NCBI RefSeq assembly: GCF_000195635.1
Contig: NZ_GL882630.1
Span: forward strand, 1-64,000
DNA: 64,000 bases
Direction: 5' to 3'
Source of the DNA: Bacteroides fluxus YIT 12057
GTDB taxonomy: Bacteria > Bacteroidota > Bacteroidia > Bacteroidales > Bacteroidaceae
Position numbers and translations under genes: made by a program. The notes under the pieces were generated by a model. The model worked only from the letters and a program-made list of their open reading frames with translations. It was not told the DNA's origin and did not search any database. Shown here one piece after another: positions 11,323-55,859 of the stretch (the first letter of the stretch is position 1; every line of letters starts with the position of its first letter).

Positions 11323-12996
<1,674 letters not shown>

Positions 12997-13081
12997 TCAA
13001 TGATTACTTTTTAACCCTGTGAGGCAACAAATCATACCGTTCCGCTTAACATATGGATGGCTGTGTGTGCTGCCTTTGCGC

Positions 13082-13089
13082 TACTTTTG
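13082..13089 (+). promoter_or_regulatory. Promoter -7 box for the GH5 gene
   Basis: TACTTTTG matches TAnnTTTG exactly, 44 bases upstream of the GH5 ATG. No -33 TTTG is seen at the expected distance. Confidence 0.5.
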
Positions 13090-13132
13090 CTATCACTGAT
13101 TTAACCATTAATTTTTAATACGTAAAAACATC

Positions 13133-14878: not shown

Positions 14879-14965
14879 TGGGAGAAGATAATAACAGAAA
14901 TAGAATTGTAAATAAGTTATTTTATAAAGGGATAAGATTGTAAAAACAGGTTTTTGATTGGTTTA

Positions 14966-14995
14966 GGAGGGAGTATCCGTGAGGAGTATCCCTCC
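14966..14995 (+). terminator. Possible terminator after GH5
   Basis: GGAGGGA (14966-14972) pairs with the TCCCTCC arm ending at 14995, with a bulged middle and a short ATTTC tail. It is a weaker structure than the other terminators here. The remaining gap to 15118 shows only a loose 8-bp inverted repeat (15016-15023 with 15054-15061). Confidence 0.4.
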
Positions 14996-15118
14996 ATTTC
15001 ATGTGATTGTGAAACAAGCAAGGGATATTCAATGATAAAAAAACAAGAGGCTGCCTTGCTTTTCTGTTCCCTTTTTGTTTCATTTGCGATAAAATAGTAA
15101 TCCCTTTATCTTGATAGT

Positions 15119-18100
15119 ATGAAAAGACTGCAACTGTTCATTCTGTGGGTTTGTACCATCTGTTTTCCGGCCGTCTCGCACGACTACATGTTTAAACATC
15201 TGGAAGTGAAAGACGGACTTTCCAATAATCAGGTCAATGCCATTTATAAAGATTCAAATGGTTTCATGTGGTTTGGTACGGCATCCGGATTGAACCGCTA
15301 TGACGGTTACGATGTCAAGATATACCGTAGCCAGAAAGATGATATGAAGTCTTTGCCTGATAATTACATTGAAACCATACAGGAAGACGGTGCAGGTAAT
15401 CTGTGGATTCTTACGGGAGCAGGCTATGCTATCTATAATTCAGGGACAGACTCTTTTGACCGTAATGTCGGGGCGTGGATGTGGAACATCGGGATTGACG
15501 GAGTGCCTTCTAAAGTGTATATTGATACGGAAAAGGCCTATTGGCTTTTTATGGCCGGTAAGGGTGTTTACCGCTATAAGACAGGCATGAAAGCCGCTGA
15601 GAGGGTAAAACTTTCCCTTGAAGAGTTATCCGGAGGTGGAATTACATCCATGGTAGAATGTGATGAGGGTATTCTGATGGCCTATGATGATGGTACTCTG
15701 TCCTGTATAGATAAGGAAAAACTGGAGTTGAAATGGGTCAACCGTGATATCCCGGCAGAACTTGAGACAGATGAGGTGAATACGTTCGACCTGTTTGCGG
15801 ACCGTGACGGAAGAGTATGGGTGTATAGCGTCATAGGTGTGTGGATTTACGATCTCCCCCGGAAAACGTGGGAACTGCGCTCTCCAAGAAGCGACACGTA
15901 TAATATAGTGCGTGCCTTGGCGCAGGATAAGTATGGCAATATCTGGGTCGGACGTGACCAGGATGGCATTGATGTGATTGACAAGAACCGGCAGCATACG
16001 CATTTGGCGAATGATCCCAACAACGAACGCACCTTGTCAAATAATACCATAACGTCACTTTATGAAGACGTTGCCGGTACCATGTGGGTAGGAACCTATA
16101 AAAAAGGCGTTTCCTATTACAACGAGAGTATTTTTAAGTTCGGGATGGCCGATGTAGGGGATATCAACTGTGTGGAAGACGGAGGGGAAGACATTGTATG
16201 GCTGGGAACGAATGGTAGCGGGCTGATCCGTTGGAACACGGTGACCGGAGAACAGAAGATATTCTCGCATACGGCAGATTCACGTTCCTTGTCGAGCGAT
16301 GTGGTAGTTTCTCTTCTGTTGGACAGTAGCGGCAGGCTGTGGGCAGGAACCTTTTGGGGTGGTTTGAACTGCTATGACGGTAATCGTTTTATCCGTTACC
16401 GCAGCGAAAAGGAAACGGTCCAGTCATCGGTCTATGATAATATCTGGGCTTTGGCAGAAGATAAGGATAAGAATATATGGATAGGTACTTTGGGGGGAGG
16501 AGTGCAATGCCTGAATCCCCGGACGGGGATGTTCACCACCTATTCCACCGGCAATTCCAACCTGGTTTCAGATTATATTTCCTCTCTTGCCATGGGGCGT
16601 GATAATACGCTGATTATCGGTACATCTGCAGGAATGGCTTTTATGGATCTTGCTACAAAGGAAATAACTAATTTCACGGGTACGCATTCCGGAAAGACGC
16701 ATTTCTCCAACCAGACTATCAATCAGGTGTATGAGGATAGCCGTGGGTTGGTCTGGGTAGCGACTCGTGAAGGATTGAATGTATATGACCCGAAGCAGGA
16801 CGAACTATATGAAGTACCTCTTAAACCGGACTTCTCTAAACTATTCATATTGGGTATCGAGGAGGATGACAGGAAAGGTATTTGGGTAAGCACAGGCGGC
16901 GAGTTGATAAATATCATGCTGTCGGTGGATAGCCAGACCGGAAAACTCTCCTTTCGTTGCTATACTTATAATGATAAGGACGGTCTGCAGAGTTGTGACT
17001 TCAACCAGCGTTCCCTTAAACGCCTGCACACGGGTGAAATTGTGGTGGGCGGATTGTACGGTTTGAACCGTTTCCGTCCGGACAATATAAAATACAACCG
17101 TACTCTGCCGAAAGTAATGTTTACCGGTTTCCAGCTTTTCAATGAAGAGGTAAGGGTCGGCAAGGAATATAAGGGACGGGTGATATTGTCGGAGGCTCTG
17201 AACAAGGCTAAAGAAGTGGTGCTGGATTATGAACAGAATGCATTTACCGTGCTGTTTGCTTCCGACAATTATGTGCTGCCCGAAAAGACACGGTATTTCT
17301 ATAAACTGGAAGGGTTCAATGACGATTGGCTGGCGAGCATGTCCGATATGCATCGTGTCACCTATACCAATCTGGCTCCCGGTACCTATATCCTGAAGGT
17401 GAAGGCTACCAACAGTGACGGATATGCCGGAACGGCTGAGGCTAGTTTGAAGATTGTCATTCTGCCGCCTTTCTGGATGACGCCGTGGGCATACGCCTGC
17501 TATATTTTCCTGCTGATTGGTGGTCTGCTTTTGGCTCTCTATGCGGTGCAACGCCGTGAACGCAATAAATTCAGGATTCGTCAGATGGAGCAGGATGCCC
17601 AAAAGACGGAGGAAGTCAATCAAATGAAATTCCGATTCTTCACCAATGTCAGCCACGAGCTGCGTACTCCGCTAACACTGATCATATCTCCGTTGGAAAG
17701 CATGATTAAGGAACCGGCGGATGGGAAACAGTTGGACAAACTGAAGATGATGCACCGCAATGCCTTGCGCCTGTTGAATTTGGTGAACCAGTTGCTCGAC
17801 TTCCGTAAAAATGAGATGGCCGGGCTTCACCTGACACTTTCCGAAGGCGACATTGTAGCTTACGTACAGAATATTTGCAATTCTTTCCTAATGCTTTCGG
17901 AAAAGAAAAACGTTCATCTTACTTTCTTTTCGGCGGTAGAGTCGCTGAATATGGCGTTCGATGAAGACAAGGTGGGCAAGATTGTGATGAACCTTTTGTC
18001 GAATGCTTTTAAGTTCACACCGGACGGAGGAAGGGTGGATGTTTCCTTGGAAGTGCTGAAAGGCTCCCCGGAAACTTTGGAAATTAAAGTATCCGATACG

Positions 18101-32202: not shown

Positions 32203-32250
32203 TTATCTTTAGGCGTTGATGATATGAATATTGATTAATGCTTGGCTGAT

Positions 32251-33271: not shown

Positions 33272-35701
33272 ATGACAGATATACAGGAAGATACAACACG
33301 ACGGTTACCGGAATTGAAAGAACGGCATTTGCCCGACAACTGCCGTGAAAGTGTAAGCGCACTATTGAAAGAGGTTTATGGTTATAATCAGTTCCGTAAT
33401 CTTGAAATATATGATGATTTATTCAAGGGGAAAGAAAAGCTCTGCATTTCTCAAGGGCAATTGATCGAGAATGTCATTCTTGAGGCGGAGAAGGCCCGGG
33501 CAGGTGCGGCACAGGTGGACAATATCTTGTTGACTGCTCCTACCGGTTCCGGAAAATCTTTGTTGTTTCAGCTTCCTGCCATTTATCTGGGAAAAGAATA
33601 CAATCTGCTGACCATCGTTGTCTCTCCTTTGAAAGCACTGATTGTGGATCAGGTGGAAGGATTGCAGGATTTGGGCTATACGCGTGTGGCATACGCTTCT
33701 TCCGATCTTTCTCCGGAGCAGAAGTCAGAAGTTTACCGTCGGGTGCGCGAGGGCGGGATTGATTTGTTCTATCTCTCGCCGGAATTGCTCCTCTCTTATG
33801 ATATCAAGCATTTTGTGGGTGAACGTCGTATCGGGCTGGTAGTGGTTGATGAAGCGCATACCGTCACTACCTGGGGGAAGGAATTCCGCGTGGATTACTG
33901 GTTCCTGGGGCGTTATCTGACTGCTTTGAAACAGAGCCTCGGTTACTCTTTCCCATTGTTTGCCTTGACAGCTACGGCTGTCTGGAACCCGAAGGGGGGA
34001 AATGATATGGTATTCGAGACGATTCGTTCCTTGCAGATGGAGCCGTGTGTGCTTTATGTGGGTACGGTGAAACGGCGGAATATAGGTTTTGATATCCGCC
34101 AGATGCAGATGGAAGAGGGGGAAACCTACGACAAGGCCAAACAACGTGTAGTGGCTGCAAGGATAGACGACTTCTTGAACGGGCATAAGACGCTGCTTTA
34201 TTATCCTTTTGCCGGCGGCATCGACATGCGGCTGAAGACGTGGGTGAAGCCGGGCGACTGGCACTTGGTGGCTTCCTACTATGGCAAGAAGGACAAGGAA
34301 CAGAAGGCGGCGATCGTGCAGGAGTTCAGAGACGGTACCAAGCAGCTGATTGTTGCTACAAAAGCTTTTGGCATGGGAGTGGATATCAGTGATATTGACC
34401 GTATCTATCATGTAGCTCCGTCAAGTACTTTTGTTGATTATATCCAGGAGATAGGGCGTGCTGCCCGTGATGCGGATATTCAAGGCTTGTCCGTGACCGA
34501 TTATCATAAAAGGGATTTTTACTATATGAAGCGCCTGCACCAATCGGGCAGTATTGCCCAGGAGCAGCTGGTGCTTATCCTGCGGAAGCTGATGGAAGTC
34601 TATAGGATGAAAGGCAACAAACCGGATATAATGGTTTCTCTGTCTGATTTTGAATTTGTGGTGAAACTGCCGCGGACAAAGAACAAGCTGGAATACGAGG
34701 CAGAGCTGGGCCAACTGATCAAGACCGCCCTGTTATGGTTGGAAGATGATTTGGCACAACGTTATGGTAAACATCTGCTGGAAGTCAGCCCCAAGAATTT
34801 ACTGACCGAAGGATATGTTCAGGACAAGACAGGAGATGCTTTTGCCCATGAGTTCAAAAACTATCTGACTGCTGTCAAAGGTGCGGAAGGAGTTTATAGG
34901 GCCCGCCTGGAGGATCTTTGGGAAGAGCGTTTCCCGGAACTGGGCTATAAGGAGTTCAAGCAGAAGCTGAATAACGGGACGCTGTGGGAAGGATCACGTG
35001 CCGTATCTGTAGGAAAACATGAAGTTTTGCTGAAGAAAGATGCGGCATCCATCCGTGAACGTATAGATGCTTTGTTTAGAGATCTGACAGCCATGCTGAA
35101 AAACGCCCTTGTCAAGCGTAAGGGTAAATTTGATGAAGAAGAGCTGCGTGCCGTTTTTGCAGAGCATGACATGGATGTGCGGTCTGCCAAACGTTTCATC
35201 GGCTCTTTGCTGGAGAGCCGTACGGAAGAGGGACGTAGCGTAAGTTATATCAGCAGTGTGAAGAAGAAGGACTCTAATGAGTTGTCTTTCACTGTGACAA
35301 GAGGGTTCGACCTGCTTTTGTCACGTTATCAGAAACTGTTTGCGCAACGTATTGTCGGCAGTGAAGGAGACAGGCTGACATTCTTTTGCACGCCTTTCTC
35401 CGATTTGAATATGCTTCTTAACCTGCTTTCCATGCTCGATTGTCTCTCGTTCAGTGCAGAGGGCGGTGGTACACCTTGTGTCTCTGTCCGCTTTAATGAG
35501 CCTGACCTTTTGGAGAAACTTGCTCTTTCCGATGATTACCGTAATCTTATTCTGGACATGAACGAGCAGATATTCCAGGAACAGATTGAACTGTTTACCT
35601 TCTTTTTCGGAACAGACAAACTGACGGATGAACAGCGTTGGGACTTTGTGGAGGACTATTTTACGGGTATGGATGTGGCGGAATTGAAAAAGAAATTTTA
35701 A
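33272..35701 (+). CDS. RecQ-like superfamily 2 DEAH helicase with unusual C-terminal half
   Basis: This 809-residue cytoplasmic protein has a complete SF2 helicase core: motif I APTGSGKSLLFQLPA, motif Ia SPLKALIVDQ, motif II VDEAHTVTTWG, motif III ALTATA, and the second lobe with ATKAFGMGVDISD and motif VI QEIGRAARD. The aromatic-rich VDEAHTVTTWGKEFRVDYW region resembles RecQ. The C-terminal 400 residues lack the zinc-binding and HRDC motifs of classic RecQ and show no family I recognise. It is monocistronic. It could serve in DNA repair or in mobile-element defence; nothing nearby decides. Its stop is three bases from the convergent GNAT gene stop. Confidence 0.8.
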   Translation: MTDIQEDTTRRLPELKERHLPDNCRESVSALLKEVYGYNQFRNLEIYDDLFKGKEKLCISQGQLIENVILEAEKARAGAAQVDNILLTAPTGSGKSLLFQLPAIYLGKEYNLLTIVVSPLKALIVDQVEGLQDLGYTRVAYASSDLSPEQKSEVYRRVREGGIDLFYLSPELLLSYDIKHFVGERRIGLVVVDEAHTVTTWGKEFRVDYWFLGRYLTALKQSLGYSFPLFALTATAVWNPKGGNDMVFETIRSLQMEPCVLYVGTVKRRNIGFDIRQMQMEEGETYDKAKQRVVAARIDDFLNGHKTLLYYPFAGGIDMRLKTWVKPGDWHLVASYYGKKDKEQKAAIVQEFRDGTKQLIVATKAFGMGVDISDIDRIYHVAPSSTFVDYIQEIGRAARDADIQGLSVTDYHKRDFYYMKRLHQSGSIAQEQLVLILRKLMEVYRMKGNKPDIMVSLSDFEFVVKLPRTKNKLEYEAELGQLIKTALLWLEDDLAQRYGKHLLEVSPKNLLTEGYVQDKTGDAFAHEFKNYLTAVKGAEGVYRARLEDLWEERFPELGYKEFKQKLNNGTLWEGSRAVSVGKHEVLLKKDAASIRERIDALFRDLTAMLKNALVKRKGKFDEEELRAVFAEHDMDVRSAKRFIGSLLESRTEEGRSVSYISSVKKKDSNELSFTVTRGFDLLLSRYQKLFAQRIVGSEGDRLTFFCTPFSDLNMLLNLLSMLDCLSFSAEGGGTPCVSVRFNEPDLLEKLALSDDYRNLILDMNEQIFQEQIELFTFFFGTDKLTDEQRWDFVEDYFTGMDVAELKKKF

Positions 35702-35704
35702 TTC

Positions 35705-36202
35705 TTACTGTTCTATTTTCTGGTACGCCAGTCTTTCATCCCCGTTGGCAAGGTAAATGATTCCGCAATATTGAAAACCGTGTTTGGTCAGTATGTGCTG
35801 AAGGATGTGATTGTCACGATGAGTGTCTGCACGTAAGTTCGGGATTTGGGTATAACACCATTGCAAGCAGGCATTGGCTACCCCTTTGCTGTCCTCCGTA
35901 CTTGCCAGCCGGTGGATGACACCGTAGGGAAGCGTGTCTTCCAGCCACTCTCCCTCATAGATTGATGTGTAGGTCGGGTCTTTTCCGGGGATAAAGGCGA
36001 AAGTCCCGACGATTTTCCCGTTTTCGTCGATGCACACATAACTGTTGCCGTTTTGTATATCATGGGTAATGATGTCAATGGAAGGATAATTGCCCGTCCA
36101 TTGTTTCATGTTTCCATCTTTCCTCATGATGCGTTTCGCCTGCTCAAAGATATCCATGAGGATGCCTGTCTCTGTGGGTAGTGTCTTCCTGATTTCTATC
36201 AT
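35705..36202 (-). CDS. GNAT family N-acetyltransferase
   Basis: This 165-residue cytoplasmic protein fits the GNAT fold: beta1 (IEIRKTLPTE), central strand with NGKIVGTFAFIPG, then IHRLASTEDSKGVANACLQWC carrying the acetyl-CoA-binding turn, and NLRADTHRDNHILQHILTKHGFQYCG as the family's motif B. The acceptor is unknown. It is the last gene of the minus-strand PUL 2 arm. A 43-base relic of an SGNH esterase 3' end lies directly upstream (36206-36248), and a truncated copy of this gene's first seven codons lies at 38328-38348, so it belonged to a duplicated unit. Confidence 0.85.
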   Translation of the reverse strand: MIEIRKTLPTETGILMDIFEQAKRIMRKDGNMKQWTGNYPSIDIITHDIQNGNSYVCIDENGKIVGTFAFIPGKDPTYTSIYEGEWLEDTLPYGVIHRLASTEDSKGVANACLQWCYTQIPNLRADTHRDNHILQHILTKHGFQYCGIIYLANGDERLAYQKIEQ

Positions 36203-36205
36203 ATA

Positions 36206-36248
36206 CTCTAAAATCGGTGTTCAGATTCTCTTTGCAAAGGTAATGATA
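36206..36248 (-). pseudogene. Relic of an SGNH esterase 3' end
   Basis: On the minus strand this matches the last 13 codons of the SGNH gene at 38354-40126 at about 41 of 43 positions (YHYLCKENLNTDF here, YHYLYKENLNTDF there). One T is missing, which removes the stop codon. No other part of the esterase remains in this copy. Confidence 0.85.
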
Positions 36249-36252
36249 AAAT

Positions 36253-36282
36253 TTTGGCACTGTATGCCGATACAGTGCCAAA
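36253..36282. terminator. Perfect 13-bp hairpin after DUF2264
   Basis: TTTGGCACTGTAT (36253-36265) pairs perfectly with 36270-36282 around a GCCG loop. On the minus strand it lies between the DUF2264 stop and GNAT and is flanked by A/T-rich sequence, so it may terminate or attenuate the transcript. It sits exactly where an SGNH gene appears to have been lost. Confidence 0.6.
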
Positions 36283-36315
36283 TTAATCTGAGAATAATAA
36301 GATGTTATCTTGAAA

Positions 36316-37581
36316 TCAATATTCCACTTTGTAATCTTTGGGCAGATTTTCCCCTTTCCATGCCTTCTTGGTAGTCCAGTCGGCAGGTGCGTCGGTCCAG
36401 AAAGGATTGTCGGCGGGAAGTCCTAAAGGCAGGAAACTTAACGTTGCCATATAGAGACTTCCGGTAGAGGTGTATCCGTCGGCGGCTTCCGGCTGATGTC
36501 CGTTGAAGCCGAGGACCAGCCAACCGTTTTTATCAAAATTCTGATTCCCTTCGTACATATTGCGGTGTACGGCGGTCAGTGCGCAACGTACTTGTGCGGG
36601 AGTGACATGTGCCGGCAGTTTTTCACGCAGTGCAACATCCGCCAAGGACTGGAAAGCGGCGGTGCGGTAAGTCACGGAACGGCCGAAAGCCGGATAAGTT
36701 CCGTCCGGTCCAATGATACGTTCACAGAATTCGGAGTGGCGGATCATGCGTTGAAGCGCTTCATCCACCTCTTTCTGGCTGGCTCTCTTTTTTGCGGCCA
36801 GAGTTTCCAACATGGCTACATACATGGGATTCAACACGTAGGCATTGTAATAGTCCATGCTGAATTTGGGACCGTCGCTGTACCATCCGTCACCCACGTA
36901 CCATTCCCTTATCTTGTTTTTGGCTATTTTCAGGCGGAAAGGATCACACTCGCCTCCTGCCCAGTTAATGAACGATTCGTTCAGACCGGTAAAGATAAGC
37001 CAGTTGTTGTATGCCCCCGTCCGGTTCCGGAGAGCTTTCAGTGATTCGATATAGCGTTGTTTGGTGGTGTCGTCCAGTGGTTCCCATAATGCCTTGGGAG
37101 CACGCAGAAAAGCATGTACCAGATAGGCCGCATCTACTATGGGCTGTGGCTGCTTCGTGAAGTTCAGTTTGTCGGGAGAATTAGGGTCAACTGCATTCTT
37201 CAGCCCTTTCAGTACTTCCTCACGCATTTGTTTGCGGAGCTTTCCCTCTTCTGTGTCATCATCGGGCAGTGCCAACCATGGAGCGACCCCGGCCAATGTA
37301 CGGCCTACAGCTTCCAGGTAAGTAACCTCGTCATATCCCCGGGTGTTTCCGCTTCGTGTTTCTATCGGCATATTCCGGCGCAAGGTCCCCTCTGCCAGAT
37401 TGTGGACGACAGGGTAGGATATTTTCCACATCAACTTTACCCATGTGGCACGGTCTTCGGCGCCGGTGGTCACTTGTTGTTCTTTGGAGGGTTTGTCCTT
37501 TTTACCTTTGGCCTGCAAGGAAGATGCGGGCAGTATCATTACCGCTATCAGCAGTAGAATGAGATAATTCAATCGTTTCAT
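36316..37581 (-). CDS. DUF2264 domain secreted protein, probable glycan-active enzyme
   Basis: This 421-residue protein has a signal peptide (ending SSLQA) and one DUF2264 domain (about 40-400), an all-helical toroid. Motifs seen are RGYDEVTYLEAVGRTLAGVAPW, NNWLIFTGLNE, YVGDGWYSDGPKFSMDYYNAYV and EAADGYTSTGSLYM. DUF2264 proteins are recurrent in PULs, and some are classed as uronic-acid-releasing hydrolases (GH154, as I recall). With a GH88 and a lyase nearby, a role on a uronic-acid glycan is reasonable. It begins eight bases after the small lipoprotein stop. A second copy, reduced to start and stop, lies at 40183-40239. Confidence 0.8.
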   Translation of the reverse strand: MKRLNYLILLLIAVMILPASSLQAKGKKDKPSKEQQVTTGAEDRATWVKLMWKISYPVVHNLAEGTLRRNMPIETRSGNTRGYDEVTYLEAVGRTLAGVAPWLALPDDDTEEGKLRKQMREEVLKGLKNAVDPNSPDKLNFTKQPQPIVDAAYLVHAFLRAPKALWEPLDDTTKQRYIESLKALRNRTGAYNNWLIFTGLNESFINWAGGECDPFRLKIAKNKIREWYVGDGWYSDGPKFSMDYYNAYVLNPMYVAMLETLAAKKRASQKEVDEALQRMIRHSEFCERIIGPDGTYPAFGRSVTYRTAAFQSLADVALREKLPAHVTPAQVRCALTAVHRNMYEGNQNFDKNGWLVLGFNGHQPEAADGYTSTGSLYMATLSFLPLGLPADNPFWTDAPADWTTKKAWKGENLPKDYKVEY

Positions 37582-37588
37582 GGTCTTC

Positions 37589-37879
37589 TTATTTGATGTT
37601 TAAGTTACTCTTATACAATTCCACAAACAAGCAATCATCAAAACCTTCTTTCCCTTCAATGGTATGCAGAGTTCCATTAACTTCATACTTTACCTCATGC
37701 TCAAGTTCTAAGGTGGTTCCTGTAGTGCCTTCTGGAGGATTCGGTAATAAACTCTGTCCGGAAAGATCATTCAAGATGATGGCAAAATTAGGTTCTCCTA
37801 CTCCATACGTCGGCCCGTCTTTTTTTTCACATCCGCAGAGCGATAACAGGGTAATGGCTAATAAATATAGGTATTTCAT
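37589..37879 (-). CDS. Small lipoprotein of unknown function
   Basis: This 96-residue protein has a lipoprotein signal peptide (LLSLCGC, then EKKDG). The remainder is a single predicted beta-type domain without recognised motif (PNFAIILNDLSGQSLLPNP, VKYEVNGTLHTIEG). It is directly upstream of DUF2264, so both are likely on one transcript. A -7 box (TAACTTTG on the minus strand, 37900-37907) lies 20 bases upstream, and farther up is a copy of the SusC promoter. It occupies the place where SusC, SusD and GH88 stand in the other copy of the operon. Confidence 0.7.
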   Translation of the reverse strand: MKYLYLLAITLLSLCGCEKKDGPTYGVGEPNFAIILNDLSGQSLLPNPPEGTTGTTLELEHEVKYEVNGTLHTIEGKEGFDDCLFVELYKSNLNIK

Positions 37880-37933
37880 GGCTTTTGTTGTTTTGCTTAC
37901 AAAGTTACGGTTTTACAAATAAATACTTCTTGT

Positions 37934-37976
37934 TTCGTTGATACATATTAATTTTAAGGTTTCTGCTGCAAATTTA
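37934..37976 (-). promoter_or_regulatory. Diverged copy of the PUL 2 SusC promoter and start region
   Basis: On the minus strand this holds a -7 box TAAATTTG (37969-37976), GCAGCAGAAACCTTAAAATT and then ATGTATCAACGAA (start codon at 37944-37946). It aligns closely with 46541-46592, the -7 box and start of the SusC gene (TAATTTTG ... CCTTAAAAT ... ATGTATCAACAAA), with an 8-9 base gap. The frame after the ATG stops after 13 codons (MYQRNKKYLFVKP), so it is a relic or a leader. Upstream similarity may extend to about 38030. The rest of 37880-38353 shows only the repeats and relic listed separately. Confidence 0.7.
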
Positions 37977-38241
37977 AACTGAAAGGCATTGGCCGGGGGG
38001 TATTTTCGTGTTTATGATGGGAGAATGTTTGTGTCCTTTGCTTTTTAACACTTTCTTTTCGTATAGCTTTATAAAGAGAAGAATATGAAAAGAGTGGATC
38101 TCCGTATGATTTTGTCAACAACTTGAACTTGCAGGTACTATATCTCCCGTCTGCCGGGTATCTATTGGAAACTTTTAGGAAAGCTAAAGAAAAACCTTTT
38201 GAAGTTAAGACTAAAAAGTCGCGGAGTTAAGTGAGATCTCT

Positions 38242-38314
38242 GTTCGCAGTGCGCGAACGGATATTCAAAGCGTGCGAACATATATTCAAAGCTTGCGAAC
38301 GGATATTCACAAGC
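38242..38314. repeat. Three tandem 21-22 bp repeats capped by a small palindrome
   Basis: Units at 38251-38271, 38272-38292 and 38293-38314 share GCGAAC.gATATTCAAAGC with one to three changes each. The left end overlaps an inverted repeat GTTCGC (38242-38247) with GCGAAC (38253-38258). They directly follow the truncated GNAT relic on the minus strand. Confidence 0.8.
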
Positions 38315-38327
38315 CTTGAATAAAGTT

Positions 38328-38348
38328 TGTGTTCCTGATTCCTATCAT
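38328..38348 (-). pseudogene. Relic of a GNAT gene 5' end
   Basis: The first seven codons here (MIGIRNT) match the start of the intact GNAT gene at 35705-36202 (MIEIRKT), at 18 of 21 bases. The similarity then ends in the tandem repeats. It lies six bases after the stop of the SGNH esterase, the same order as SGNH relic then GNAT at 36202. Confidence 0.75.
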
Positions 38349-38353
38349 ACGCT

Positions 38354-40126
38354 CTAAAAATCGGTGTTCAAATTCTCTTTGTAAAGGTAATGATAGAGTT
38401 GAGACGCAATCTTTTCATACCCTTTCTCATTCGGGTGAAGTCCGTCACTGAATAAAGACGGGTCGATGCGCCCGTCTTCCTTGATAAAGAGAGAAGTCAG
38501 ATTCACATAAACCGCATCGGTCTTCATCAATTCTTTTTGCAGTTTGGCGTTTATATCCTTGATTCGTTGCTCCTGTCCTTTTCTGGGTAAGATTCCTACG
38601 ATATGCAGTTTGGCCGAAGGCTGCCTTTCACGTATAGCTTTGGCGGCAAACGCAATTCCTTCTACAATCTCACGGTCTGTATTGAATTGTAAATTATTGG
38701 TTCCAATCAGCATGAAGATATCTTTCGCCTTATATCCGTCCAGCTCTCCGTGATAGACACGCCAAAGCACGTTTTCAATCTTATCCCAACCGAAGCCCAG
38801 ATTGCGGACTTTCGTCCCTGCAAACAAGCGGTTCCATGCATGCTTGCCCCGTTGCATGTCGGCAAGCGGTTCGCCTGCCCAATAATGAATAATGGAATTG
38901 CCGATAAGAATTACTTCAGGCGGATCTGCACGATTCAACTTCAGAACCTGTTCATGTCTTGCCTGCCAGTCGTAAGGGTCTCTTTGTTGCTTGCAGGGAA
39001 TGCATGTCGGTGTGTCTCCTGTTTCTTCTTTCAGAATTTCACGGATTTTTCTTACATAGCTATCGGCGTATTGTTGCATACCCAAGTCACTGGGATGCAC
39101 TCCTTCTACCATGGCGTCCATTGATAACCCTATCTCTTCCTTTGTCAGATAGTAAATGTCAGATACTTGTTGCTGTATCAAAGCATTATATGCCTTTCGC
39201 AACTTATGGTTGGCTGCCTTGTAAGAAGCCGCTGCACGGCTTGAAGTATATTCGTTGGTATATCCACTGTGCTCTACCAGCAATATGGGTACATGGCTGC
39301 GGGCACGAAGTATCTTTACTCCGGTCAGAATACGTTCTACGATAACGGCAGTATCAGCAGGGGAGATCATGTTGGGCATGCAGTCTATGATGTAGAGCAT
39401 AGCGTCTGTCTCTGCCAACAGTTCAAAGAGTTCTTTTTCAAGTTTGCCGCTTCCGGAAAAACCTAAGTTGACGACCGGATGCTGCAAGTCTCTGCTTACG
39501 ATATTCGTCCAGGCCATGCCGGGCCGTGAAGCGCAGGCTCCTTGGGCGATGGAAGTACCGTAGGCTACCAGCGGCTTTTCTTCGGAGACGGGGATGAAGG
39601 AGATGGATGCATTATCTTTCACCCCGATTTCGAGAAAAGAAACCGAATTATAAAGAGGCAGGAACAATGTATATTCATAGCCTCTGCCCGAACCGCCTTC
39701 GTAGGTGAGTCCGCTATAAGTATAAACCAAGGTGTCTCCCAAAGCATATTTGGCGGCGCACCAACGGCTTTGGCCATTCTTGTCTGTGGCGTAGAGGTCA
39801 ACGCCCGAGACACCGGTAACAGGCATGTGTGCCATGCTGAGCCCTCCATTTACAACATACTTCACTTTGATTTCCGGTGAGTCGGAGTAAAAGGCGATGG
39901 AAAGTCCTGCACTTTGTCGGGACAAGTTCCAGACTGCTTTGTTTACTTTGTCCTTCGCCTTCAGGGGGAGGCGGGCATAGCTTCCTTGCAGTTCATGGTG
40001 CCATGCTCTGCCGCGGACCACCGGGAAGGGTTGCTCTAGCGGATTTACCCATTTGACTTGAGCCTTCATGCACAGGCCGCCTACAAGGAAAAGTAATAAT
40101 GATAATACATGTCTTTTTTTCATCAT
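38354..40126 (-). CDS. Secreted double SGNH-hydrolase esterase
   Basis: This protein of about 590 residues (ATG 40126 or 40123, signal peptide ending CMKAQ) has three parts: an N-terminal beta-sandwich (about 25-180), a first SGNH domain (Ser192 in VAYGTSIAQGA, His344 in EGVHPSDLG) and a second SGNH domain (Ser411 in ILIGNSIIHYW, then MLIGTNN and SDGLHPNEKGY). Such enzymes remove acetyl or other acyl groups from glycans. Two complete active sites in one chain suggest two acyl positions or substrates. It follows GH88 in the operon, with a collapsed DUF2264 relic between them. A TTG reading from 40186 begins inside that relic and is rejected. Confidence 0.85.
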   Translation of the reverse strand: MMKKRHVLSLLLFLVGGLCMKAQVKWVNPLEQPFPVVRGRAWHHELQGSYARLPLKAKDKVNKAVWNLSRQSAGLSIAFYSDSPEIKVKYVVNGGLSMAHMPVTGVSGVDLYATDKNGQSRWCAAKYALGDTLVYTYSGLTYEGGSGRGYEYTLFLPLYNSVSFLEIGVKDNASISFIPVSEEKPLVAYGTSIAQGACASRPGMAWTNIVSRDLQHPVVNLGFSGSGKLEKELFELLAETDAMLYIIDCMPNMISPADTAVIVERILTGVKILRARSHVPILLVEHSGYTNEYTSSRAAASYKAANHKLRKAYNALIQQQVSDIYYLTKEEIGLSMDAMVEGVHPSDLGMQQYADSYVRKIREILKEETGDTPTCIPCKQQRDPYDWQARHEQVLKLNRADPPEVILIGNSIIHYWAGEPLADMQRGKHAWNRLFAGTKVRNLGFGWDKIENVLWRVYHGELDGYKAKDIFMLIGTNNLQFNTDREIVEGIAFAAKAIRERQPSAKLHIVGILPRKGQEQRIKDINAKLQKELMKTDAVYVNLTSLFIKEDGRIDPSLFSDGLHPNEKGYEKIASQLYHYLYKENLNTDF

Positions 40127-40182
40127 TCTATTGGTTGAGTAATCATATACGCAATTGAGGCTATTCAAGGTTCTCTTTGAAA

Positions 40183-40239
40183 TCAATATTCTACCTTTAT
40201 GACTGATAGCGGCAGAATGAGATAATCCAATCGTTTCAT
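40183..40239 (-). pseudogene. Collapsed DUF2264 gene: start joined to stop
   Basis: This 18-codon frame reads MKRLDYLILPLSVIKVEY then TGA. Its first nine codons match the start of the intact DUF2264 gene (MKRLNYLIL) and its last codons match that gene's end (KVEY, TGA, and the following TTTCAA). About 400 internal codons are gone. It precedes the SGNH gene, so it marks the place of a second DUF2264 gene in this copy of the operon. Confidence 0.85.
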
Positions 40240-40362
40240 GGATTCAATAGCTTAGGTTTTTACAAATATGCCTCTGCCATATCCCCGCTAACACAGTTCA
40301 TGGTATCGGGGAAATGGCAAAGGCAAATTTATAGAGATTTAGCGTAAATTGCTAAGATTAGA

Positions 40363-41637
40363 TTAGAATAATGGTTCGTTGTTCAATATTTTGTTGTAAC
40401 GGTGCAGAGCTTCTATGAAATAGTAGTCTGCATAAGTCAGAGGCACGTCTATTTCACCACCGTGAGGAATGGCACCTGTGCTGTGCATTAAGATGAAGTT
40501 GGCGTTCTCGCCTAGTTTGGCGCGATAGGCGGCACTGCCCAACGAGTGCAGTATTTTCTTGGCTCCTTCCAAGTACTTCTTGCTCTTGGCGCCTTTCACA
40601 TAAGTACTTAATTCTATTAGCGCCGAGGCGGTGCAAGCTGCGGCGGAGGCGTCACGGTAGATGACCGGAGTGATGCTTGCTCTGGAACGTACACCGGGCA
40701 CATAACCTTCCTCCCAGGCATTGAAGTCCCACCATGCCACCTTGTCGCTGGGCAGGTTGGGATGGTCCAAATAGTAGTCGGCCATGCCTTGAGCGGTTTT
40801 CAGGAAACGCTTGTCGCCTGTCTCGCGGTAACACAGAGTGAATCCGTAGATGCCCCACGATTGTCCCCTTGACCAACAGGAATTGTCCGAATAGCCTTGG
40901 GAAGTCTCTCCTTTGATGGGAGCACCCGTTTCTTTGTCATAATAGATGATATGGAAATGACTGTAGTCTTTGCGTATCTGGTTCTTCATTACCTTTTCGG
41001 CATGTGAAATGGCTACTTTTTTATATTCATCGTTGCCTGTGACCTTGCTGGCGTGGAACAATAGTTCCAGGTTCATCATATTGTCTATGATGACGGGGAA
41101 GTCATACACTTTGTCACCGTGCCAAGAGCGGAAGCCGTTCCACGATTGGATGACGCCTGCTTTGGGGCGGAAACGGGTACAGAGTGATTTGGCCGATTCG
41201 GTCAGAATATCCTCGTAACCGTCTTTCGGTGCAAAGCGGTTGGCGTTACCGTAGCTGCAATACATCATAAAGCCGATGTCATGGTTGTCGGTGAAAGTCT
41301 TGCAAGGCTCCATATATTGGGTATAGACCCGTGCGGAGTCTTGCAGGGCTTTGTCACCAAGGAAGTCGGAAATATACCATAAACTACCCGGGAAAAATCC
41401 GGCCGTCCATAGATAGATGCTGCCTTTAGAAACTGTGCCATCCTTGCGCATGCTGTGAGGCATGATACCTTTCCCCTCTTTTCCCTGTGCGGGCGTTTTC
41501 AGCATCAGTTGGTATTGCTTGGCGGCAAATTCCATGTTTTCCTGAATGAATGACTTCTCTGTTTCTTGCGCCTGGGTAGTACCCAAGGCGCAAGTGAACA
41601 GGAGTGTTGCCATAAAACGAATTTTGTTTACCTTCAT
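40363..41637 (-). CDS. GH88 unsaturated glucuronyl hydrolase
   Basis: This 424-residue secreted enzyme (signal peptide ending TTQA) removes the unsaturated uronic acid left by a polysaccharide lyase. The (alpha/alpha)6 barrel carries the two catalytic aspartates of the family, D120 in DNHDIGFMMYCSYG and D185 in VIIDNMMNLELL, and the typical CWSRGQSWGIYGFTL. Length is normal. It starts 31 bases after the SusD gene stop, so it is the third gene of the operon. Together with the heparinase-like protein at 46824-48662 it implies a uronic-acid-containing substrate. Confidence 0.92.
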   Translation of the reverse strand: MKVNKIRFMATLLFTCALGTTQAQETEKSFIQENMEFAAKQYQLMLKTPAQGKEGKGIMPHSMRKDGTVSKGSIYLWTAGFFPGSLWYISDFLGDKALQDSARVYTQYMEPCKTFTDNHDIGFMMYCSYGNANRFAPKDGYEDILTESAKSLCTRFRPKAGVIQSWNGFRSWHGDKVYDFPVIIDNMMNLELLFHASKVTGNDEYKKVAISHAEKVMKNQIRKDYSHFHIIYYDKETGAPIKGETSQGYSDNSCWSRGQSWGIYGFTLCYRETGDKRFLKTAQGMADYYLDHPNLPSDKVAWWDFNAWEEGYVPGVRSRASITPVIYRDASAAACTASALIELSTYVKGAKSKKYLEGAKKILHSLGSAAYRAKLGENANFILMHSTGAIPHGGEIDVPLTYADYYFIEALHRYNKILNNEPLF

Positions 41638-41668: not shown

Positions 41669-43378
41669 TTACCAACCGGGATTTTGTTGTCCCAATTCTG
41701 AATTTCGTTCAAATTCTACTGCGGGGATAGGCCACAGATAGTCGCGTATCTCAAAGACGCGTTTGTAACGGTCTTTGCCCAAGATGTCATCATACATGAA
41801 GTTCAGTTTCTTTTCTCCAAGCCCCCATCTTCTCAGATCGCTGAAACGCTGTCCCTCACAGGCCAGTTCAATGGCTCTTTCTTGAACTATGCGTTCGAAG
41901 ATTTCATCTTTAGTGTGTGCTTCCAACCAGGGTTTGCCACTGTTCAAGGCAGGCATATTGGTAGAAGGACGTTGGCGAACCTGATTTATCAAGGCTACTG
42001 CATCATCCTGCTTTCCGGGCTGTTCATTGTAACATTCGGCAAGCATTAGCAATACGTCTGCATAACGAATCAACGGGTAATTGATAGGAGTATGCTCACG
42101 GTTGGATATCATTCCGTTCATATCACCTTCCGGTACAAATTTACGCCACAAGTAGTCATACCAGCCGCGATTGTTACGGATATAGCCATTGTTTTCATTG
42201 GTACCGGATGCGAGAACGAATTCCATCATTTTGGGAGTGGTACCGTTGCATCCATAGTATTGGGCGTAAGGAGTAATAATGGTTTGTTCCAGACGTGGGT
42301 CACGGTTTTCGTAGATGGCTCTTATTTTATCCTTCTGGGCTGGATACGTAGAAACTATACCGTTGTTCAGTTCTGCCTTGAAGATGCTTTCCTGTAGGGC
42401 TTTGTCGGTCGTGAATCCGGGGAAGTGGTCTTCCCAGTTGAATTTTGTGCCATCACGGTTTTCGTACATATCTACCAAGAGGTCTGTGGGGATGCAGTTA
42501 TTCCATCCGCTTCCGTAAGAAGAACGGCTGCCCAGATAAAGGCTGAACGGCATTCCGTACTCAGTGCCCGTACCACTCATATTCTGGATAGCAAAGATCA
42601 TTTCGCTACTGGTGTCGCCTTCGGGAGTGAAAAGTTTGGCATAGTCGGGATACAACTGATATCCATAGCCTCGGTTCTGAGGGTCTTTTACAATCTCCTC
42701 GAAGTCTGCTGCTGCGCTGACATAATCTTTGTTGTATAGTTTCACTTTTCCTCTTAAGGCTACGGCTGCACCTCGGGTAGCACGACCATATTCGCTTTGT
42801 TGCCAGTGAACGGGCAAAGCATTGACGGCCGCATCCAAGTCATCTAAAATGAACTTGCGAGTCTCCTCGGCAGTGGAACGCGGTTTCTTCATCGTCATGT
42901 ATTCGTTGCTGACAATAGTTGTTTCGTCATACAAGGGTACCCCTCCATAATAGTCCAATAGATGGAAATAGTACAATGCACGCATGAATCGGGCTTCGCC
43001 TTTGTATTGCGTTTTCAACTCTTCTGACATATCTACATTGTCAACGTTCTGTAGTACGATGTTGGCACGTGCTACACCTTCATAAAGTTCTTTCCAAATA
43101 TTCTGGATGACGTTGGAACGGTCTGTGTAGGTTCCTAAATTGACAGGAGACATGGAAGAGTCATCCCAGGCGATGTCTCCTAAGCCGTCACGTCTGAAAT
43201 AGGTACCGAAAGCGTTTTCTCTTTTCATCTGGTTATATACACTCATCATTCCTTGATGGGCGTGAGTCTCCGTTTTCCAGAAGGTTTCGGAACTCAGTTT
43301 GTCATGTGGGTATTGATCCAAGTCAAAGCAGCTGGTCATCAAGCCCATAGTGGTCAAAAGTAAGATATATTTTTTCAT
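41669..43378 (-). CDS. SusD/RagB-like lipoprotein (PUL 2)
   Basis: This 569-residue lipoprotein (cysteine 17 in LMTSC) partners the SusC gene upstream. Family motifs: LSSETFWKTETHAHQGMMSV, EARFMRALYYFHLLDYYGGVP, RGKVKLYNKDYVSAAADFE, and near the end PLIRYADVLLMLAECYNE and ELACEGQRFSDLRRWG, closing with PIPAVEFERN. Length is typical. It is 13 bases after the SusC stop and 31 bases before GH88. It shares no close resemblance with the PUL 1 SusD beyond the family motifs, so the two loci probably bind different glycans. Confidence 0.95.
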   Translation of the reverse strand: MKKYILLLTTMGLMTSCFDLDQYPHDKLSSETFWKTETHAHQGMMSVYNQMKRENAFGTYFRRDGLGDIAWDDSSMSPVNLGTYTDRSNVIQNIWKELYEGVARANIVLQNVDNVDMSEELKTQYKGEARFMRALYYFHLLDYYGGVPLYDETTIVSNEYMTMKKPRSTAEETRKFILDDLDAAVNALPVHWQQSEYGRATRGAAVALRGKVKLYNKDYVSAAADFEEIVKDPQNRGYGYQLYPDYAKLFTPEGDTSSEMIFAIQNMSGTGTEYGMPFSLYLGSRSSYGSGWNNCIPTDLLVDMYENRDGTKFNWEDHFPGFTTDKALQESIFKAELNNGIVSTYPAQKDKIRAIYENRDPRLEQTIITPYAQYYGCNGTTPKMMEFVLASGTNENNGYIRNNRGWYDYLWRKFVPEGDMNGMISNREHTPINYPLIRYADVLLMLAECYNEQPGKQDDAVALINQVRQRPSTNMPALNSGKPWLEAHTKDEIFERIVQERAIELACEGQRFSDLRRWGLGEKKLNFMYDDILGKDRYKRVFEIRDYLWPIPAVEFERNSELGQQNPGW

Positions 43379-43391
43379 GTTGTTGCAATAT

Positions 43392-46300
43392 TTAGAATGA
43401 AACGTTAAGACCGAAAGATGCCTGTCGCATAGTCGGGTAGGTGAATGTGGTAGTTTCTGGATCCATACCTGCGAAGTCGGTGAACGTGAAGAAGTTCTCC
43501 AAACTGCAGAACAAGCGTACGCGGTTCAAAGTAGTAGCCTTTACCCATTTGTCGGGCAGGGTATATCCTACCTGAATGTTGCGTATCTTGAAGAAGGACT
43601 TGTCCGTTTCCCAGATGGTGCTGCTTCGGGTATTGCGACTGTCGCTCTTCATCAGTCTTGGGAAAATGGCATTTGTACTTCCTTCATGCCAACATCCGTC
43701 GGCTATTTCCTGGCTGATTTGGTTACCGTATGCCACATTGGATGAACGCATGGTTTGGTATTGCACTTTCTGACTACCTGTACCGGACAGTACGGTTGAG
43801 AAATCGAAACCCTTGTAGTCAAATCCTATTGTGAAATTGTACATGAAACGAGGAGTATCGCCATGTCCTCTGGCTACCCGGTCGTCATCGCTGAAAATAT
43901 AGTCATTATTGGTATCTTTGTAGAGCACGTCACCCAATTCCGGACGTTTGTATTTTTGGAAGGGATTTATCTTCTTCCCGTTTGCATCCAATGGAGCATT
44001 GTCGATAAGTGACTGTACATAGTCCAGATCTTCCTGTGTCTGGATGATGCGGTCGGCTATCAGTACGTATTGTGTATTGATGCCATATCCTTCCAAAATC
44101 ATCGTGCTGCCTTTTATACTCATTTCATTCCCTTTGAACTTGGTAACTTTGTTATCGACGAAAGTAAGGTTGGCGCCGACGTTATAGTGGAAGTCATTGA
44201 CTTTGTCTGCCCAGTTCAGGGTTATTTCAAATCCTTTGTTGACAACCTCTGCACTGTTTTGGGTCGGCAATGAGGAACTACCGTGAACCAGAGGTGCGGG
44301 CAGGTCTATCAGGATGTCAGAGGTCTTCTTGTAGAAATATTCCAACGTACCGTTGAGGCGGTTGTTCAATACTCCGAAGTCTGCGGCGAAATTGGTTACT
44401 GCGGTACTTTCCCAGGTTAGGTTGGTATTTGCCAGGCTTAATTGTCCCATACCTATTACCATTCCATCGTTCAGCACATAGTTGGCCTTGGCGTATGTGG
44501 GGACACACATATATTCGGATGCTAGGTAGTTATTGCCTAATACACCATAAGATGCTCGGAGTTTCAAGGCATCCAGCCATTTGCGTGTACCTGCCATAAA
44601 GTTTTCCTGGTCGATGCGCCATGCTGCAGAGAATGAAGGGAAATATCCCCAGCGTTTGCTTTCTACGAAACGGGAGGAGGCATCTGCGCGCAGGTTCATT
44701 TCCAACAGATATCTGTTGTCCCATCCCAGGTTGATACGTCCGAAGTAAGAACGCATGGCCCATTCCGAATGTGAGCCGGAAGTGGTTGATTCTCCGGTAG
44801 CGCCGTCTATGACATCCACAGAAGAGTCGATCCAGTCATATTTTTGTGCGCTGAAACTGCGGTCGCGGCGCATTTCTTGGCTGGCTCCTGCCAGAATGTT
44901 GAGGTCGAGTTTGTTGTTGAAGAACTTATTTTCGTAGCGGATGACGGCGTCCATGAATATCCGCTCTATTTTGCGGTTATCATTTTTTATGTAGTTACGC
45001 CGTGCGTCTTTTGATACAACAGATTCAGTATTGAAATTCCATAAATCCAGCAGATTGGTTTTCCGACTGTTGTCTTTGTCTGTCAGTTCATAAGAGTACG
45101 AACCTGCGATACTCAAACCTTTGAGTGGGGTCAGGGTACCGTTGAACTGTGCTCTGATGTTACGCTCTTGTTTTTTACCTACCTCACGATAGAGCTTTTG
45201 TAAAGGGTTGTTGGCTTGTGGGTCATCTTCTGGGTTTTGCATACCGCCGAAGCGTCCGTCGTGACGGAGTACGAGTCCTGGAGTACTTGCTACACCATAG
45301 GTGAAAACATCGTCTATCATGTCTTGTCCCAGATCTATATTGGCAAGATAACCACCAAGTTTGGTGCCTAATGTTAACCACGGAGTCACTTTAGCCTCTA
45401 CGTTGGAACGGAAGCTGTAGCGTTCGTAACCTGCATTCTCTATTACGCCCGGATTGTTGTTGTAGCCAAAGGAATTGTAAAAAGAGATTTTGTCATTCCC
45501 ACCGCTTACCGATAGGTTGTGATTGGTGGCGACAGCAGTACTGAAAACTTCATCAATCCAATTCGTATTAGGATAAATCAAAGGGTTTTGTCCCTTGTCA
45601 TTACGCCAGGCATCAATCGTCTCTTGGGTGAATCGTGCAGGCTGTCCGCTATTCTGATAGGCTTCGTTCATTAAATCCATGTAAGTGGCATAGTCGGATA
45701 CAGGGTCAATGGTTCTGCCTATAGACTCAAGTGATACATATCCGGTATAATCTACGTTGACCTTGCCGCTTTTTCCTTTCTTGGTGGTAATCAAGATAAC
45801 ACCGTTGGCAGCGCGGCTACCGTAGATAGAAGCAGAAGCGGCATCTTTCAGTACACTCATGCTTTCTACATCTTGTGGAGATACTGAATTGATGTTACTT
45901 TCTACACCATCGATGATGACGAGTGGGGCTGAATTGTTCAAGGTTCCTTGTCCACGTACTAAAATGGAACCGTTGTCGTCACCAGGCTTGTTGCTACTTG
46001 AAGTGACCGAAATTCCTGCTGCCATACCGGCCAAACCGGCAGACAGGTTTGTGATCGGGCGTTTTTCTGCGATGTCTGCCATATTTACAGAAGATACTGA
46101 ACCAGTGAGGTTTACTTTCTTTTGGGAAGCATATCCCACTACTACCACTTCGTCTATCAACTCACTGTCTTCTTGCAAAGTGATATTGAGGTTACTTTGT
46201 GTACCCACTTTTATACTCTGCTCTTTATAACCAACAAAACTGATAACGAGGGTTGCATCTTTAGGTACATTGTTCAAAGTAAATTGACCGTCGATGTTGG

Positions 46301-46553
46301 TAATGGAACCGTTGGTCGTTCCTTTTACCATTACATTGGCACCGATAATTGTCTCTCCTTTGTCATCTACTATAGTACCTGTAATGGTACGTCCTTGTTG
46401 CTGCACGATGGGTGAGGAACCGGTGAAATTGGAATCGGAATAATTGTTTCCGGCTGCATACGTTGGACCGGTTGCCAATAAGATGGCTCCTCCAACTAAA
46501 AGTTTGGATAGTTTGGCATGAAACATGCACCTTTCTTTTTTTTGTTGATACAT
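43392..46553 (-). CDS. SusC-like TonB-dependent transporter (PUL 2)
   Basis: This protein of about 1050 residues has a signal peptide (LVGGAILLATGPTYA), a carboxypeptidase-like domain (ITGTIVDDKGETIIGANVMV), a TonB box (IDEVVVVGYASQKK), a plug (ITNLSAGLAGMAAGISV) and a barrel ending FGLNVSF. Two starts are possible: ATG 46553 (MYQQKKERC) or ATG 46526, which is preceded by AAAGGTG, a good ribosome site. It is divergent from the lyase-like gene at 46824. Its promoter and start have a relic copy at 37934-37976. No regulator gene lies nearby, so control must come from elsewhere. Confidence 0.95.
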   Translation of the reverse strand: MYQQKKERCMFHAKLSKLLVGGAILLATGPTYAAGNNYSDSNFTGSSPIVQQQGRTITGTIVDDKGETIIGANVMVKGTTNGSITNIDGQFTLNNVPKDATLVISFVGYKEQSIKVGTQSNLNITLQEDSELIDEVVVVGYASQKKVNLTGSVSSVNMADIAEKRPITNLSAGLAGMAAGISVTSSSNKPGDDNGSILVRGQGTLNNSAPLVIIDGVESNINSVSPQDVESMSVLKDAASASIYGSRAANGVILITTKKGKSGKVNVDYTGYVSLESIGRTIDPVSDYATYMDLMNEAYQNSGQPARFTQETIDAWRNDKGQNPLIYPNTNWIDEVFSTAVATNHNLSVSGGNDKISFYNSFGYNNNPGVIENAGYERYSFRSNVEAKVTPWLTLGTKLGGYLANIDLGQDMIDDVFTYGVASTPGLVLRHDGRFGGMQNPEDDPQANNPLQKLYREVGKKQERNIRAQFNGTLTPLKGLSIAGSYSYELTDKDNSRKTNLLDLWNFNTESVVSKDARRNYIKNDNRKIERIFMDAVIRYENKFFNNKLDLNILAGASQEMRRDRSFSAQKYDWIDSSVDVIDGATGESTTSGSHSEWAMRSYFGRINLGWDNRYLLEMNLRADASSRFVESKRWGYFPSFSAAWRIDQENFMAGTRKWLDALKLRASYGVLGNNYLASEYMCVPTYAKANYVLNDGMVIGMGQLSLANTNLTWESTAVTNFAADFGVLNNRLNGTLEYFYKKTSDILIDLPAPLVHGSSSLPTQNSAEVVNKGFEITLNWADKVNDFHYNVGANLTFVDNKVTKFKGNEMSIKGSTMILEGYGINTQYVLIADRIIQTQEDLDYVQSLIDNAPLDANGKKINPFQKYKRPELGDVLYKDTNNDYIFSDDDRVARGHGDTPRFMYNFTIGFDYKGFDFSTVLSGTGSQKVQYQTMRSSNVAYGNQISQEIADGCWHEGSTNAIFPRLMKSDSRNTRSSTIWETDKSFFKIRNIQVGYTLPDKWVKATTLNRVRLFCSLENFFTFTDFAGMDPETTTFTYPTMRQASFGLNVSF

Positions 46554-55229: not shown

Positions 55230-55859
55230 GAATATAACGATAGAGGTGTTAATTTTATAGTGCTCAATTATAACATTTAAACGACTACCACTATGTTCTC
55301 AGAGGCTAAAGTTACAGAGATGTATTGTGTGGCAGACGATTTTTGTTGACAAACCCAACCGGATGAGTGACGCGGATATATGTGTCAATATATGTTGTCC
55401 GACGTCCGGAATATATTGGTGAAACTCGCAAAAGGATAGGCAGGAATGCGCGTTTGCCTTGTCTGTTTTATCATTTGCCTTTAGGTAAAACTTCGTACCA
55501 CGTATCTGGGCTCTCCGGCATAGGCACGTGGGCTCTCCGGTTTACGTACGTGTGCCGGAGAGCCCAGATACGTGGGATAAAGTTTTGTATTAGGTATCAA
55601 GGTATTATGCATAAGGCTTTCCAGTATTCAGTATTAGGCAGAGGGATAAAACTGGTGATATCCCGATAGCCATGGTTGAGTTTCGCTTGAAATTGACGCT
55701 AATAAATATAACTTCGATGTACTTGCAGGGTGGGCGTGTGAGTTGTTGTAAGATGTTGATAAATAATAATTTATTCTTTATTATTTAGTAAGAGACGGAA
55801 TTCATGGTAGTCAGCTCCTTACTTTGTTGACTTACAAACTATAGGTCAGCAAAGAAATA
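55230..55859. other. Long intergenic region, no supported gene
   Basis: Between the GH2-like gene and the decayed gene there is no frame with coding character on either strand. The open frame at 55367-55669 (+) runs through the palindrome and lacks a convincing start. The region holds only the large palindrome at 55487-55586. Confidence 0.6.
55487..55586. repeat. Large palindrome with three copies of an 11-bp core
   Basis: A perfect 23-bp inverted repeat (55498-55520 with 55553-55575) is extended by a 7-bp outer arm, AAAACTT (55487-55493) with AAGTTTT (55580-55586). The core GGGCTCTCCGG occurs at 55508-55518, again at 55530-55540 in the loop, and inverted at 55555-55565, so two alternative hairpins can form. 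It is the longest cruciform-capable structure in the window and sits beside a decayed gene. Confidence 0.9.

Follow-up and report, generated by a model that had tools for sequence, protein, structure and literature searches.

Two versions of one operon, each partly lost, upstream of a conserved gene in Bacteroides fluxus

The locus described here is a clear molecular fossil of two versions of an operon and not a new kind of system. It was found in a window of 64,000 nt (the whole stretch of DNA analysed), where the remains of the two versions, named copies A and B, lie side by side. A predicted GH88-type gene survives once, in copy B, and a predicted DUF2264 gene survives once, in copy A. With modest confidence, the copies are regarded as two diverged alleles that were probably joined by one-sided recombination, a reading favoured over simple tandem duplication.

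Genomes and comparisons

The window lies within a draft genome of 4.33 Mb in 97 contigs. It was compared with 157 other genomes, one per species (158 genomes of the genus with its own genome included), which are referred to by G numbers. The significance of relics was assessed by comparing local alignment scores with those of dinucleotide shuffles (2000 per comparison unless another number is given). In the other genomes, cut-offs were set at E ≤ 1e-136 for DUF2264, E ≤ 1e-170 for GH88 and E ≤ 1e-30 for GNAT. The names RecQ, susC, outer-membrane beta-barrel, priA and regulator (62403-66383) were given by reading and are our assumptions, as are 'cobA-like' for the gene at 32242 and 'TPR-like' for genes in loci L169-L171.

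Relics common to the two copies

Copies A and B share short matches that are collinear and lie on one strand. These are the start of the gene called GNAT (36182-36213 versus 38328-38359, 88%), its upstream region (36210-36253 versus 38357-38400, 91%), the start of DUF2264 (37550-37583 versus 40208-40241, 91%) and the end of DUF2264 (36310-36330 versus 40177-40197, 90%). The GNAT upstream match scored 37 and the DUF2264 start 28, both with a best shuffle of 16; the DUF2264 end, which is the weakest relic, scored 19 with a best shuffle of 17. In each of the three comparisons, 0/2000 shuffles reached the score. A preliminary description of this DNA had reported these relics; their places, order and strand were borne out, and chance matching, which would have undone its argument, is ruled out by the shuffles.

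Both DUF2264 relics of copy B are on the minus strand, the 5′ end at 40208-40241 and the 3′ end, recognized by its match to copy A, at 40177-40201. The 5′ relic has independent support, since the alignment with G123 runs unbroken from GH88 into it (40208-41567). The 3′ relic did not match the DUF2264 end of G028 (498/2000 shuffles were as good). When changes were polarized with outgroups, copy B had 5 and copy A 2 in the GNAT flank (1 undecided; the promoter alignment with G178 and G031 is poor), 2 and 1 at the DUF2264 start, and 7 and 3 at the DUF2264 end (1 undecided; the last columns may fall outside the homology). These counts suggest that copy B took more changes than copy A.

An artefact, in the form of chance matches or of misassembly at a repeat, is very improbable. 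The genome is a draft of 97 contigs and a dispersed repeat lies at the joint, but in addition to the shuffle results, misassembly of one sequence would not yield copies that are 9-12% apart, and the order of the relics agrees with that in relatives.

The operon in related genomes

The predicted ancestral operon is susC-susD-GH88-DUF2264, and these four genes are contiguous in G087, G123 and G144. At the cut-offs used, DUF2264 was found in eleven other genomes and GH88 in seven. All seven genomes with GH88 also have DUF2264, on the same contig and strand in 7/7, at a distance of about 30-320 bases in G062, G087, G123, G028 and G144, of 2.3 kb in G093 and of 5.4 kb in G140. DUF2264 occurs without GH88 at the cut-off in four genomes (G034, G094, G076 and G170), and in G034 it comes after susD. 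The order in G093 is GH88-C10 peptidase-lipoprotein-DUF2264, the gap being filled by two genes, one for a C10 peptidase (with Peptidase_C10 and Spi inhibitor domains) and one for a lipoprotein-like product of 188 residues. A literature search found no paper naming DUF2264 and none on duplication of a polysaccharide-utilisation locus with gene loss.

The preliminary description had taken DUF2264, SGNH and GNAT as the duplicated unit and had proposed relatives as a check. An intact operon was indeed found there, with the composition susC-susD-GH88-DUF2264, and none of the 157 other genomes has an intact DUF2264-SGNH-GNAT unit. At the thresholds used, DUF2264 and GNAT are adjacent in 0/9 other genomes having both, and SGNH and DUF2264 in 0/3. 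SGNH and GNAT are not members of such a unit in any of the genomes searched.

Contents of the two copies

Copy B, on the minus strand, retains susC (43392-46553, named from reading, from its susD neighbour and from similarity to relatives), susD (41669-43378, SusD families by Pfam) and the intact GH88-type gene (40363-41637; PF07470, E 9e-9; 93% to G087), and has lost DUF2264 except for both ends. Its GH88-DUF2264 junction is the plain junction of G123. Heparinase-like, GH95, GH2 and esterase genes lie near susC-susD-GH88.

Copy A, also on the minus strand, retains an intact DUF2264 gene (36316-37581; PF10022, E 1.8e-119; 95% to G087 and 94% to G028). It also contains two truncated neighbours. 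The first is a lipoprotein-like ORF of 96 residues (37589-37879; 188 residues in G093), which matches residues 1-73 of the G093 lipoprotein (35%, E 1.3e-8) and has no other match in the 158 genomes at E 0.01. The second, just upstream of this ORF, is the tail of a C10 peptidase gene (37904-37943), of which the last 13 codons and the stop remain: it encodes YQRNKKYLFVKP followed by a stop, and the G093 gene ends in YHRNTEFLFVEP and a stop. The E value of these 13 residues is 0.009, and a chance row stood at E 0.024 in the same search. At the DNA level the relic scored 23, with a best shuffle of 18 (0/2000); against the whole C10 gene the best shuffle was 20 (0/500).

Further upstream, the stretch 37952-38049 (minus strand) resembles the region just before GH88 in G028 (73%, E 2.5e-7; score 43, best shuffle 21, 0/2000); a longer alignment of it runs into the C10 relic and has an unreliable end. 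Of the 157 other genomes, G028 alone yielded a counterpart, and the stretch need not belong to GH88, because in G028 it sits between GH88 and a divergent susC. This left part of copy A was also compared with the region upstream of susC in the window and was rejected as a copy of it (score 11 on the forward strand; on the reverse strand 22, where 50 shuffles of the forward strand alone reached at most 20).

Copy A is best described, from its gene remains, as what is left of an operon with C10 peptidase, lipoprotein and DUF2264 genes. No GH88 bases remain in it, and from G093 and G028 we infer that it once held GH88. The C10 tail and the stretch like the G028 GH88 upstream region come in addition to the relics reported before. 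The idea of two parallel copies with complementary loss holds for the pattern and for the relics; the genes concerned are different ones, the pair being GH88 in B and DUF2264 in A.

The GNAT gene and its upstream region

The gene named GNAT in the preliminary description is intact at 35705-36202 (minus strand), and no family was found for it in Pfam or NCBIfam at E 0.001. It is present in 118/158 genomes of the genus, its own included (E ≤ 1e-30). Its conserved neighbour is a helicase gene (33272-35701, plus strand; Pfam DEAD and Helicase_C), which we take to be RecQ-like from reading. Within 1.5-kb flanks of GNAT, the helicase was present in 15 and an outer-membrane protein gene in 13 of the 19 listed loci of other genomes. 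GNAT as a member of the operon was ruled out by its position beside the helicase in most relatives compared.

The upstream region of GNAT in copy A extends over 36203-36250 (minus strand). The 52 bases upstream of the gene match the GNAT upstream regions of G149 (0/500 shuffles), G178 (0/500) and G031 (1/500). In all, 28 loci of 22 genomes were compared. The remaining 19 genomes gave no clear match in their GNAT upstream regions (14/500 shuffles or worse), and they include G073 and G087, which have the most similar GNATs. The same 52 bases were compared with 30 SGNH 3′ ends and none matched (best 7/300 shuffles).

Bases 36206-36248, previously described as the tail of an SGNH gene lost from copy A, are best read as the putative promoter of GNAT itself, because they match GNAT upstream regions and carry a −7 type box, TACCTTTG, at 36235-36242 (minus strand). 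The −7 consensus for Bacteroides, as quoted in PMC7366714, is TAnnTTTG. In copy B, the GNAT upstream region (38349-38400, minus strand) has the box TACCTTTA at 38382-38389 and overlaps the last codons of SGNH. An SGNH remnant in copy A was not accepted, given that the bases match the GNAT upstream regions of three genomes and 0/30 SGNH ends. Some doubt comes from the tail of the window SGNH, ASQLYHYL, which fits the tails of its homologues, so that part of the overlap between SGNH and promoter may be native SGNH sequence.

A perfect palindrome with 13-base arms (36253-36282, no strand assigned) lies in the interval between DUF2264 and the GNAT promoter. It is terminator-like and is absent from copy B. 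The palindrome was also considered as a dispersed element, which was ruled out since it has a single site in its own genome with up to 3 mismatches allowed.

The SGNH esterase gene

The SGNH esterase gene is intact at 38354-40126 (minus strand; GxDLY, Lipase_GDSL_3 and Lipase_GDSL_2); its start was set at 40126, and the listed ORF begins at 40186. Its closest relatives, in G123 (82%) and G087 (81%), are both in another susC/susD locus. DNA similarity to these two covers 38406-40140 and stops at 38406, beside the promoter copy. The last SGNH codons (38354-38400) overlap the GNAT promoter copy, and the protein is about 9 residues longer than most homologues. These last codons are probably, but not certainly, captured promoter.

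Of the 13 other genomes that have SGNH as well as GNAT, none (0/13) has the two directly adjacent. In 3/13 (G023, G108 and G136), other genes intervene and the distance is 1.8-6.1 kb. SGNH relatives located near GNAT in three other genomes (L169, L170 and L171) have 47-49% identity.

The model first put forward for this locus, in which DUF2264-SGNH-GNAT was duplicated in tandem, copy A then losing SGNH and copy B losing DUF2264 and GNAT, accords with the order of the relics, with the fit of the SGNH tail to its homologues (the overlap could be native SGNH) and with the three genomes in which SGNH relatives lie near GNAT. It is nevertheless improbable, as the bases common to the two copies resemble GNAT upstream regions and no SGNH end, the adjacencies it calls for are missing in all the genomes having both genes of a pair, and the closest SGNHs belong to another locus.

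The dispersed repeat at the joint

The GNAT relic of copy B consists of the first seven codons (38328-38348, minus strand; 19/21 bases as in 36182-36202). Directly abutting it is one copy of a repeat, about 195 bases long, that is dispersed in the genome (38133-38328, plus strand). The repeat aligns over at least 137 bases with 16 other places in its own genome (70-96%), and with shorter ones. At their 3′ ends five copies extend as far as AATTCCGCCAACGGGT, and the complement of this sequence stands at the 5′ end of one (up to 2 mismatches). The AATTCCGCCAACGGGT pattern has 16 forward and 16 reverse sites in the genome, against 4 and 1 for the reversed control. The window copy is without this 3′ terminal sequence: it ends short of the AATTCCGCCAACGGGT end, where the GNAT relic starts. 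Among the 157 other genomes, similarity over nearly the full length of the repeat was found in G073 only.

GNAT of copy B had been described as a gene reduced to seven codons. The relic is confirmed and its decay is not: the cut at codon seven may be a junction rather than decay, because it coincides with the truncated end of the dispersed repeat.

The repeat is non-coding and has inner units of 21 bases (38243-38305). Eight of the 32 AATTCCGCCAACGGGT sites lie no more than 32 bases from the start of a contig, as if this sequence were common to an unassembled mobile element.

The island and its surroundings

An island of about 30 kb (36250 to 66570) sits between GNAT and the outer-membrane protein gene; in many relatives the two genes are separated by no more than a short intergenic region. 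In its own genome, the outer-membrane gene is at 66647-67192, on the same contig as the window, and is followed by a gene, read as priA, that starts at 67315. In G031, the helicase, GNAT, the outer-membrane gene and a priA-like gene come in succession. The G149 region that separates GNAT from the outer-membrane gene has its counterpart in two places of the genome studied, 66570-66646 (92%, E 3e-27) and 36203-36246 (80%, E 0.11). No tRNA that could serve as an integration site was found within the window.

The large gene at 62403-66383, read as a regulator, occupies the far end of the island, adjoining the outer-membrane gene; its counterpart in G123 is directly downstream of DUF2264 (G123 locus 11485-15460). 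In G028 (locus 12668-14928), DUF2264 is followed by an outer-membrane protein gene on the opposite strand, of the same family as the neighbour of GNAT elsewhere. An inverted repeat is present at 55487-55586 (43-base arms, 86% complementary, 14 bases between).

Joining of the two copies

The joining of two alleles is favoured because the neighbours of copy A are not those of copy B and because the G087 operon is not equally distant from DUF2264 of A and GH88 of B. Among codons for the same residue, 0.746 were identical to G087 in DUF2264 of A (n = 402) and 0.624 in GH88 of B (n = 383), a difference with a 95% interval of 0.059-0.188; against G028 and G123, both genes gave 0.55-0.57. The difference may instead reflect G087 having exchanged its DUF2264.

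In the proposed mechanism, the region upstream of GNAT would have come to contain two diverged versions of a polysaccharide-utilisation operon next to each other, both with a copy of the GNAT 5′ flank at their end. Of these, version B (susC-susD-GH88-DUF2264, like G087, G123 and G144) would have kept GH88 and lost DUF2264 bar its two ends. In version A (GH88-C10 peptidase-lipoprotein-DUF2264, like G093), DUF2264 would have survived, and GH88 would have been lost together with almost the entire C10 gene and roughly half of the lipoprotein gene. The incoming DNA, whose end carried repeat-lipoprotein-DUF2264-GNAT-helicase, would have crossed over homologously in the GNAT or helicase gene, and its other end would have been joined illegitimately, within the repeat, to codon 7 of the resident GNAT. 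The outcome would be a seven-codon relic of the resident GNAT and an intact incoming GNAT, and the redundancy would afterwards have let each copy drop the gene kept by the other. One-sided recombination is the most economical joining event. Along the helicase and GNAT genes there was no clear signal of a crossover tract (the closest of six relatives shifts from segment to segment, with small margins), and neither a donor or recipient allele nor any genome with a single operon version beside GNAT was found among the 157 others, so that this mechanism is put at about even odds.

A tandem duplication in the lineage, starting upstream of DUF2264 (or GH88), stopping at GNAT codon 7 and followed by complementary loss of GH88 and DUF2264, is a less probable explanation, to be kept as a tentative one; the repeat, the C10-lipoprotein genes and SGNH would then have been gained or lost separately. 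Collinear copies lying side by side agree with it, as does the similar divergence of both relic pairs; this divergence of about 10% between the copies fits an old duplication equally well, and an end at GNAT codon 7 would explain the seven-codon relic without any loss. But B has the plain GH88-DUF2264 junction of G123 and A has C10 and lipoprotein genes before DUF2264 as in G093, the repeat is truncated at the joint, and DUF2264 of A and GH88 of B are unequal in distance to G087. The simple tandem duplication proposed at first leaves the different neighbours of A and B without explanation.

Beyond the joining of two alleles at this locus, it is conceivable, and at present rather unlikely, that operon versions repeatedly land in the space upstream of GNAT, arriving by one-sided recombination and leaving truncated GNAT starts as a record, the relic promoter having been captured here as the C-terminus of SGNH. 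The locus gives a base-by-base view of a polysaccharide-utilisation locus rebuilt from two of its own versions, with ends kept and genes dropped. The truncated start of a conserved gene can mark a join, and should such truncated GNAT starts also be present in other strains, they could serve to count past insertions at the site.

Comparison with known systems

Like polysaccharide-utilisation loci, the locus has a susC/susD pair with carbohydrate-active genes, for which a sugar-degrading role is predicted; unlike the typical ones, one of its copies is fragmentary. The repeat at 38133-38328 is a candidate miniature inverted-repeat element: it is multicopy, five copies have AATTCCGCCAACGGGT beside the 3′ end, and one has the complement at the other end. 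Tandem duplication with complementary loss leaves collinear copies in which each gene of a pair survives once. The present locus is similar in having two collinear copies in the same orientation, with GH88 and DUF2264 each intact once, and differs in that gene content and neighbours are not the same, the C10 tail and the lipoprotein ORF being in A only.

Homology-facilitated illegitimate recombination is reported during conjugation in E. coli (PMC3240628), and according to PMC5361080 it is proposed for the type VI secretion immunity-gene arrays of Vibrio cholerae. A truncated resident gene at the non-homologous join is present here in the form of the seven GNAT codons beside the truncated repeat. 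In common with the V. cholerae arrays, as far as these are described in PMC5361080, one side of the locus would be anchored by homology and the other joined without it, with remnants of the displaced resident gene beside the new piece. Unlike them, it is a polysaccharide locus of the Bacteroides type, the join is marked by a dispersed repeat, and the event is deduced from sequence.
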